A stretch of DNA of 64,000 bases from an uncultured Porticoccus sp. (GTDB lineage Bacteria; Pseudomonadota; Gammaproteobacteria; Pseudomonadales; Porticoccaceae), in contig NZ_CAJXST010000004.1 of NCBI RefSeq assembly GCF_913061305.1, positions 186,001-250,000 of the forward strand, read 5' to 3'. A program made the position numbers and the translations under genes. The notes beneath the pieces are model-generated. The model saw nothing but the letters and a program-made list of their open reading frames with translations. It was not told the DNA's origin and ran no database searches. This document shows, one piece after another, positions 8,325 to 30,863 of the stretch. Each line of letters starts with the position of its first letter. Position 1 is the first letter of the stretch.

Positions 8325-8411
8325 TGGTACCAGAGGCCGGACTCGAACCGGCACGCTTTTAAGGGCGGGGGATTTTGAATCCCCTGTGTCTACCAATTTC
8401 ACCACTCTGGC
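8325..8411 (-). tRNA. tRNA-Leu (anticodon CAA)
   Basis: Read on the minus strand, an 87-nt tRNA folds with acceptor stem GCCAGAG / CTCTGGT (first pair G-U), discriminator A and an encoded CCA end. The anticodon stem GGGGA/TCCCC frames the loop TTCAAAA, giving anticodon CAA. A long variable arm (about 15 nt) and the class II D-loop are typical of leucine tRNAs; the T-arm GCCGGTTCGAGTCCGGC is perfect. The sequence closely resembles E. coli leuX. Confidence 0.97.
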
Positions 8412-28513: not shown

Positions 28514-29206
28514 ATGACTGAGAACGAAAATAACAGGGCCGTGGTGCTGGTATCCGGCGGCCTGGACTCTACGACGGTGCTGGCGCTGGCAAAAAGTCAG
28601 GGATTCAGCTGCTATACCCTGAGCTTTGATTACGGGCAGCGGGCCCAGGCAGAACTGGTTGCCGCCCGGCGCTGTTCTGAACAGCTGGGTGCCGAGGAGC
28701 ACAAGGTTATTAAGTTGGACCTGAGGGCTATTGGCGGCTCTGCCCTGACCGATGACCGTATTGATGTGCCAGAGGAGCAGACCAGCGGCATTCCCGTGAC
28801 TTACGTGCCGGCCCGCAATACGGTATTTCTCTCCATTGCGCTGGGTTGGGCAGAGGTGCTGGGTGCCCAGGATATTTTCATCGGGGTCAACGCGGTGGAT
28901 TATTCCGGTTATCCGGACTGTCGTCCCGACTACATCGAAGCCTTTGAAAAAATGGCCAACCTCGCCACTAAATCAGGGATTGAAGGGCATTACCTGCGAA
29001 TCAACAAACCGTTGATCAATCTCACCAAAGCAGAAATTATCCTTCAGGGCACGTTGGCGGGCGTTGATTATGCGGAAACAGTCTCCTGCTATCAGGCGAA
29101 CGAGCGAGGTTTTGCCTGTGGCCGATGCGATAGTTGCCGGTTAAGAATATCGGGATTTCAGGAAGCCGGGTTGCCAGATCCCACCCGTTATATCGGCACA
29201 GAATAA
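28514..29206 (+). CDS. queC: 7-cyano-7-deazaguanine synthase QueC
   Basis: 230 residues. ATP-dependent ligase that turns carboxy-deazaguanine into preQ0. PP-loop [13 protein letters not shown] (about 15-27), [18 protein letters not shown], and a C-terminal zinc site with four Cys (SCYQ…[12 protein letters not shown], about 195-215). The protein has the family length. It follows queE immediately; preQ0 must be reduced by QueF (not in this window) before Tgt and QueA, found at 8.5-10.7 kb, use it. Confidence 0.97.
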
Positions 29207-29253: not shown

Positions 29254-29329
29254 GGGTCGTTAGCTCAGTTGGTAGAGCAGTTGGCTTTTAACCAATTGGT
29301 CGCTGGTTCGAATCCAGCACGACCCACCA
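29254..29329 (+). tRNA. tRNA-Lys (anticodon UUU)
   Basis: 76-nt cloverleaf with acceptor GGGTCGT / ACGACCC, D-arm AGCTCAGTTGGTAGAGC, anticodon stem TTGG/CCAA around CTTTTAA (anticodon TTT), T-arm CTGGTTCGAATCCAG, and encoded CCA. Almost identical to E. coli tRNA-Lys. Its position beside queC is the same as in Pseudomonas, where it is an island integration site; a copy of its 3' end follows at 29499. Confidence 0.98.
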
Positions 29330-29331
29330 AA
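29311..29331 (+). repeat. attL-like repeat: 3' end of tRNA-Lys (copy 1)
   Basis: Twenty-one bases from the T-arm to two bases past the CCA end. They recur without mismatch at 29499-29519, in direct orientation. Confidence 0.85.
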
Positions 29332-29373
29332 CAAATAAAAAGGCCACCCCAATGGGGTGGCCTTTTTATTTGT
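29331..29373 (+). terminator. Terminator directly after tRNA-Lys
   Basis: A 20-bp perfect stem (ACAAATAAAAAGGCCACCCC and its complement) with loop AAT; the right arm carries five T. It begins two bases past the CCA end, the normal place for a tRNA terminator. Confidence 0.92.
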
Positions 29374-29519
29374 AGGCGATTTGTTGTGGCTTCGTTCGTT
29401 AAAGCGTGGTTCGACAAACTCCGTCAGGAGTTTGGACCGAGCGGCTGCAGGCCGCGAAGCCCTTAAGGGGTCAAAACAGTGACAAACTGTTTTGAGTCAA
29501 TCCAGCACGACCCACCAAA
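29332..29519 (+). mobile_element. 188-bp remnant or miniature element integrated at tRNA-Lys
   Basis: The segment ends with a 21-bp copy of the tRNA-Lys 3' end, as expected if an element integrated by tyrosine-recombinase-type recombination and restored the tRNA. It contains no gene. It holds stem-loops at 29415-29434 (8-bp stem), 29441-29455 (5 bp) and 29471-29495 (10 bp), plus the palindrome CCCTTAAGGG at 29460-29469. A second terminator follows the outer repeat. A partial tRNA gene duplication is the alternative explanation. Confidence 0.55.
29499..29519 (+). repeat. attR-like repeat: 3' end of tRNA-Lys (copy 2)
   Basis: Exact 21-base match to 29311-29331. The bases further upstream (TTTTGAGTC) do not match the tRNA body, so this is not a complete second tRNA gene. 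Confidence 0.85.
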
Positions 29520-29528
29520 TACAGAAAT

Positions 29529-29551
29529 GCCGGGCTTGTCCCGGCTTTTTT
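29529..29551 (+). terminator. Second terminator behind the duplicated tRNA 3' end
   Basis: Stem GCCGGG / CCCGGC with loop CTTGT and six T. It stands nine bases after the repeat, mirroring the tRNA-terminator distance, so it may be the original tRNA-Lys terminator. Confidence 0.88.
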
Positions 29552-29786: not shown

Positions 29787-30863
29787 ATGACGCATCCATC
29801 GAAACTCCATATTGCCAGCGATTCTGATCACCGTGAGGTGGTCGAGCACTATCTGGGCAAATTGCACGAGGAGCCTCGCTACACGCCAGAGCAAGAGGCC
29901 GCATATCGGACTTCGATCAAACGGCTGTTGAAGGAACGCAATGCGGTTATCGTGGCACATTACTACACGGATCCGGTGATTCAGTCTTTAGCTGAAGAGA
30001 CGGGTGGGCTGGTATCGGACTCTCTGGAGATGGCCCGTTTTGGGCATGATCACCCGGCTGCCACGCTGATCGTGGCCGGCGTCAGGTTTATGGGTGAAAC
30101 CGCAAAGATCCTGAATCCGGAAAAAACGGTACTGATGCCTACCCTGGAAGCAACCTGTTCTCTGGATATTGGCTGTCCTGCGGATGATTTCAATGATTTC
30201 TGTGATGAAAACCCAGATCGCACGGTGGTGGTTTACGCGAACACCTCGGCGGAGGTAAAGGCGCGTGCCGACTGGGTGGTGACGTCCAGTATTGCGCTGG
30301 ACGTGGTGGATTACCTGGATAGCTGTGGAGAGAAGGTTCTATGGGCACCTGATAAGTATCTCGGCAGCTACGTGCAGAAAAAAACCGGTGCGGACATGCT
30401 GTTGTGGGATGGCAGTTGTATTGTTCATGAAGAATTCAAGGCCCGGGGGGTGCTCAGCATCAAGCAGCTCTTCCCCGATGCAGCCATTCTGGTTCACCCG
30501 GAGTCCCCGGAGGCCATGGTGGCCATTGCCGATGTGGTGGGATCTACCTCGCAGCTGATCGAGGCTGCCAGAACGCTGCCGAACCAGCAGATGATTGTTG
30601 CCACGGATAGCGGTATTTTTTACAAGATGCAGCAGGCGGCGCCGGATAAAGAGTTGATTATTGCGCCCACTGCCGGTGAGGGAGCCACCTGTCGCAGCTG
30701 TGCCCACTGTCCCTGGATGGCAATGAATCACCTGGAGAACCTGATGGAATCCCTTGAGCGCGGTAGCAACGAGATTCATGTGGATCCAGCGGTTGGCCGG
30801 CGCGCAATGGTGTCGCTGCAGCGGATGCTGGCATTTCGCGAGCAGCAGTTGGCCGAGTTGTAA
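29787..30863 (+). CDS. nadA: Quinolinate synthase NadA
   Basis: 358 residues. [4Fe-4S] enzyme that condenses iminoaspartate with dihydroxyacetone phosphate to quinolinate, the first committed steps of NAD synthesis. The three cluster cysteines lie in the expected segments: [25 protein letters not shown] and [25 protein letters not shown] and [12 protein letters not shown] are substrate motifs. nadB is not in the window. No obvious Shine-Dalgarno precedes the ATG. Confidence 0.97.

Follow-up and report, generated by a model that had tools for sequence, protein, structure and literature searches.

A probable tRNA-linked repeat of variant type accounts for the duplicated tRNA-Lys 3' end of a Porticoccus genome

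Repeats that carry a copy of the 3' end of an adjacent stable RNA gene have been described in E. coli K-12 by Stenum et al. 2021 (PMC8144298), who named the class tRNA-linked repeats (TLRs) and counted 22 of them at ten loci. Every E. coli TLR ends in 18-19 bp identical to the upstream tRNA or rRNA gene; the members found in rrn operons sit between the terminators T1 and T2 and are transcribed via T1 read-through (PMC8144298), and their deletion had modest effects. It was through this work that we arrived at the name of the class; literature searches on duplicated tRNA ends and on the rtT RNA with tyrT returned nothing. We re-read the tyrT/tyrV locus of strain MG1655 and found repeats (RttR) with a period of 178 bp and exact 19-bp tails, one unit being placed between two tRNA genes. 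A direct repeat of a tRNA 3' end is also seen at the tRNA attachment sites of islands such as PAPI-1 and pKLC102, and in Pseudomonas aeruginosa the tRNA-Lys gene PA0976.1 serves as attB (PMC5297154), as the original prediction had stated.

The locus analyzed here lies in a 64-kb stretch of DNA from an uncultured Porticoccus sp. (the window), to which Porticoccus sp. NORP89, SAT26 and UBA2511 are the nearest relatives with a name. Its tRNA-Lys gene is flanked by queC (28514-29206) and nadA (29787-30863), both named from sequence and gene order, and we take PA0976.1 of P. aeruginosa to be the orthologue next to queC. The last 19 nt of tRNA-Lys, from T-loop A58 to CCA, together with the following AA form a 21-bp sequence, AATCCAGCACGACCCACCAAA, which is present in two identical copies at 29311-29331 and 29499-29519, with a start-to-start distance of 188 bp, exactly as first reported. 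It occurs nowhere else on either strand of the window, and base composition predicts about 2e-10 chance copies per kb. Each copy is followed by a terminator-like hairpin, as had also been noticed. Read 5' to 3', the locus comprises the tRNA gene, T1, a left arm, the structured core, a tail in which the tRNA 3' end is copied, and T2 (Table 1). The only other tRNA gene of the window, tRNA-Leu(CAA) at 8325-8411 on the minus strand, has no linked repeat behind it.

Table 1. Features of the tRNA-Lys locus (window coordinates)
Feature	Position	Strand	Evidence
tRNA-Lys(TTT), host gene of the repeat	29254-29329	+	ARAGORN; Rfam RF00005, 77.5 bits
T1, terminator-like 21-bp perfect inverted repeat with internal T-run, directly 3' of tRNA-Lys	29331-29373	+	In SAT26 a homologue lies ahead of the same core
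Left arm of unit, degraded equivalent of the inverted tRNA 3' end that other units carry	29374-29407	+	MFE pairing with tail; inverted local copies in relatives
Type-1 core, GGTTCGAC...GAGTC, hairpins with compensatory changes	29408-29498	+	Common to units behind other tRNAs
Tail, exact 19-bp copy of tRNA-Lys 3' end; match runs 2 bases further to 29519	29499-29517	+	
T2, terminator-like hairpin GCCGGG-CTTGT-CCCGGC-TTTTTT after the unit	29529-29551	+	Same hairpin also directly behind SAT26 tRNA-Lys

We consider the 188-bp segment behind tRNA-Lys to be, very probably, a tRNA-linked repeat of the RtT-like kind. Its tail is identical to the host gene at 19 of 19 positions and the unit starts right behind the tRNA. 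TLRs occur at multiple loci, with one to five units at each; correspondingly, we found units at six loci of the genome to which the window belongs, and two units at the same tRNA-Lys in SAT26. In these two repeats of E. coli and Porticoccus the similarities extend to the anatomy: like the window's unit, the tyrT/tyrV repeats lie directly behind a tRNA, end in a 19-bp tail that runs from T-loop to CCA, have a similar period (178 bp in E. coli vs 188 bp in the window) and a hairpin-rich core preceded by a left arm that is the complement of the tRNA 3' end at that locus, and can form tandem units. They differ in core type, as the window's core has an extra hairpin after GGTTCGAC; besides, the window's unit follows tRNA-Lys in a Porticoccus-like host and has a strong terminator-like hairpin between tRNA and core. 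The small RNAs rrA, rrB and rrF of E. coli rrn operons show the same succession of terminator, structured core, repeated RNA 3' end and terminator, but are tied to 5S rRNA rather than to a tRNA, and binding of CsrA and Hfq has been shown for them (PMC8144298).

The Rfam model of the family, RtT (RF00391), gave no match to the window's own unit up to an E-value of 10, so that its cut-off of 45 bits was not reached, and a permissive-E scan of this unit against Rfam returned, besides the tRNA, only sub-threshold matches. The same model passes on the first of the two tandem units behind SAT26 tRNA-Lys (L004, 1372-1500, 60.1 bits). A different genome of the genus has a passing unit at Arg-ACG (73 bits), and members of the order have passing units at Ser-GGA; units behind Val and tmRNA score below the cut-off. 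The core of the window is a variant outside the range of the RtT model, with the extra hairpin CAAACTCC-GGAGTTTG following the GGTTCGA motif. This variant and the copy behind tmRNA described below are new. The feature is genuine and was seen correctly in the original prediction, but its explanation as an integration scar or attachment site was wrong: it is a variant of a known, poorly understood repeat class. The suspicion of a small module between the copies was sound; that this module belongs to a multi-copy family had been missed.

The family is apparent already within the genome of the window, where a search for further copies, as originally suggested, revealed units behind the Asp-GTC, Arg-ACG, Arg-CCG and Ser-GCT tRNAs and behind tmRNA. 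The tail has no mismatch at Arg-CCG and two at Asp-GTC, the Arg-ACG array ends with a tail with two mismatches, and at Ser-GCT the tail has been lost. The unit behind tmRNA is RtT-like (32.7 bits, below the cut-off), and its tail AATTCCCACCTCCACCA compares with AATTCCCGCCGCCTCCACCA. At this locus (L068, 1340-1885, contig C7) tmRNA is followed by a terminator and then by the unit with its tail resembling the tmRNA 3' end. A decayed unit is present behind tmRNA in the NORP89-like genome G012, and in SAT26 and two other genomes a reading frame resembling a P4-type integrase begins right behind tmRNA.

In a search of 58 genomes the core was found in 29 of the 50 complete relatives. Copies of its 96-bp stretch 29408-29503 follow the tRNAs Lys, Arg-ACG, Arg-CCG and Ser-GCT, and many of them end in the 3' end of the respective tRNA. 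A covariance model of the core, which we built and ran on genomes drawn from the order and from the class, detected it in 48 of 143 good genomes of the order, with up to 26 copies per genome, and in 43 of 185 genomes drawn from the class. A complete tRNA gene lies on the same strand within 1.2 kb upstream of 96 of the 128 order hits examined, about two thirds of these at a distance of 42-70 bp. Of the 17 tRNA types listed upstream, one, His, is included only because it lies closest to a unit that is itself fused to a tRNA-Arg. The remaining 32 hits mostly have a truncated tRNA, a tail that matches a tRNA, a neighbouring tRNA or a contig edge; for a handful of them the automatic search gave no tRNA match. 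Outside the order a tRNA was nearby in all 19 loci fetched, and mostly the tail recurs behind that tRNA. The survey shows that TLRs are widely distributed among gammaproteobacteria and by no means confined to enterobacteria. Since some units (L007, L008 and the one at Ser-GCT) keep the core without a tail, the tail is not always needed.

Analysis of 25 type-1 cores shows changes on both sides in 17 of 26 predicted pairs; 94.5% of cells pair, vs 83.0% after shuffling and at most 56.8% when the partners are slid. We regard this covariation as support for, rather than proof of, the predicted core fold, because the structure was derived from the same sequences. None of 200 shuffled versions folds as well as the unit of the window (z -3.7), and in the MFE fold the left-arm bases 29375-29378 and 29382-29386 pair with bases of the tail (29503-29512).

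The two flanks of the core belong to the local RNA gene. In the order survey tail and local tRNA agree, on average, at 14.0 of the 19 positions, vs 9.9 (sd 0.19) after reassignment of tRNAs, in a permutation that takes account of neither common descent nor tandem copies. The left flank of the core holds the tRNA 3' end of its locus in inverted orientation, with a longest exact match of 7.0 nt vs 5.5 (sd 0.11), again in a permutation that ignores relatedness and tandem copies, while the direct-orientation control of the left flank is barely above chance. Clear inverted copies of 21, 17, 17, 15 and 13 nt start exactly at CCA, and E. coli tyrT has an inverted left copy as well (GGGGAAGGAT and GAACCTTCGA). 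The window's own left arm is decayed. In the unit behind an Oceanicoccus tRNA-Lys (L088, upstream of 3440) the 21-nt inverted 3' end, CCA included, is exact, and the direct tail is the decayed one.

An integration scar, as proposed in the original prediction, would mean that an island or satellite integrated at the 3' end of tRNA-Lys, restored the gene and was then deleted, with attL and attR left behind. The position of the repeat at a tRNA 3' end, the use of PA0976.1 as attB (PMC5297154) and the fact that unit-bearing tRNAs elsewhere appear to have been invaded by islands agree with such a scar, which we nonetheless find very improbable. The same core stands behind many tRNA types with locally matched tails; related units follow some 16 tRNA types besides tRNA-Lys, and also tmRNA, with neither cargo nor integrase in the unit. 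What integrated islands appear to leave at such loci looks different: at L171, L174, L184, L188, L201, L217 and L238 the 3' part of a tRNA, from nt 29-33 in the anticodon region to CCA, is followed by a terminator and a TLR. These are probably island junctions, and what they share is about 45 bp from the anticodon loop rather than 19 bp from the T-loop, with the unit lying outside. The absence of an integrase from the window, noted at the outset, extends further, as no integrase family match was found there and the nearest PF00589 match on the contig is about 74 kb away from tRNA-Lys; nor is there anything resembling an island in the vicinity of this gene. Unlike the PAPI-1 and pKLC102 sites, the locus has neither integrase nor cargo, and its repeats bound a module of fixed size that is present at multiple loci.

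Relatives of the window point in the same direction. Of the nine Porticoccus-type loci beside queC that we compared, four lack a unit (L080, L081, L083 and L084), four have one (with the tail lost in L082) and that of SAT26 has two; there are no larger inserts between the copies and no island, contrary to what the scar predicts. The order in SAT26 is tRNA, hairpin b, RtT core, tail, hairpin a, type-1 core, tail, hairpin b. Removal of 160 bp, from the end of the tRNA to the end of the first tail, yields the order of the window, with 304 of 326 bases identical. The only differences in size found at the tRNA-Lys locus among close relatives are a whole 160-bp unit, which is the change between the sister strains, and loss or decay of a unit. 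As deletion of this segment from SAT26 reproduces the arrangement of the window, the tails mark the exact points at which the number of units changes, and the tRNA is left whole. With the tRNA-linked repeat as the preferred reading, this look-alike of an attachment site is settled: duplicated tRNA 3' ends without an integrase can be TLRs, and methods for finding islands could misread them.

It is even less probable that the second copy is the remnant of a degenerate tandem tRNA-Lys duplicate, the alternative named in the original prediction. Tandem tRNA-Lys genes do exist at this locus in Microbulbifer, and at a few other loci the 5' part of a tRNA is fused to the unit, but there is no tRNA 5' half between the copies either in the window or in its Porticoccus relatives, and joining the flanks of the core yields a tRNA in only one of 132 units, which is not the window's. 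The fused cases (L162, 1231-1339; L205, 278-378; L211, 1025-1136; L213, 1001-1112; L247, 1005-1104), in which the junction is at the T-loop, are most simply, and probably, explained as later deletions between T-arm repeats. Three of these five fused cores are located just upstream of an intact tRNA.

TLR units linked to different tRNAs resemble one another mainly between GGTTCGA and AATCC, T-loop motifs that most tRNAs share, whereas tails and left arms are local. Within genome G036 the core behind Ser-GGA differs from that behind Ser-GCT by 7% and from that behind Lys by 15%. From this pattern we infer that cores may be exchanged between loci at the shared motifs. Two features are new and provide clues to how a unit comes to match its host gene, namely the tRNA 3' end that is repeated in inverted form at the left of the unit, and a core homology whose limits are T-loop motifs.

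One tentative explanation is that the units are purely selfish miniature elements, whose cores would be spread among tRNA 3' ends by a putative mobilising enzyme; their arms would be copies of host tRNA sequence, and the cell would gain nothing from them. It is suggested by the near-identical cores behind different tRNAs in G036, by the combination of an inverted left arm and a direct tail copied from the same local 3' end, and by the variable presence of units within the genus; we nevertheless hold it to be rather unlikely. The enzyme is hypothetical, the Lys and Arg cores of Porticoccus are locus-specific and look vertically inherited, and ordinary recombination at the shared T-loop and tail sequences can also explain the spread. 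In a related scenario, to which we attach a similarly low probability, TLR cores would constitute a family of mobile miniature elements with a specificity for the 3' ends of tRNA and tmRNA genes, each becoming flanked on arrival by an inverted and a direct copy of the host 3' end. The further supposition that the flanking copies, anchored at CCA and comprising up to 21 nt of the mature 3' end, stem from a putative copying mechanism is equally speculative. If true, such an element would invariably fit the gene that hosts it and leave it unharmed.

For the tRNA-linked repeat of the window we can propose a mode of action only by analogy with E. coli, in particular with rrnB and its small RNA rrB. 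A minority of tRNA-Lys transcripts would read through T1, which would set the low level of read-through; the T1 of rrnB has a termination efficiency of 87%, quoted from earlier work (PMC8144298). Since T1 of the window looks strong, the unit may be little transcribed. The unit RNA would fold compactly, with the left arm paired with the tail, and the tail, which repeats the tRNA 3' end and is probably a copy of the tRNA processing signal, would be trimmed by tRNA 3'-processing enzymes, releasing a short RNA, which might have some function. For rrB, recognition of the repeated end by RNase E has been proposed (PMC8144298). Recombination between identical tails would change the number of units and always leave the tRNA intact, and cores would be swapped between tRNA loci at GTTCGA and AATCC, each locus keeping its own tail.

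The five fused cores had also suggested an intron-like insertion of the core into the T-loop, which we rejected as improbable, given that the joined flanks make a tRNA in that single unit out of 132, again not in the window's, and that deletion between T-arm repeats accounts for the fused cases. Finally, two cores are joined to tRNA parts at other positions, namely to the D-arm of a tRNA-Ser (L196, 949-1053) and to the anticodon loop of a tRNA-Arg (L235, 972-1074); in both cases the joint follows a TCCGA/TTCCGA motif and adjoins an intact copy of the same tRNA.
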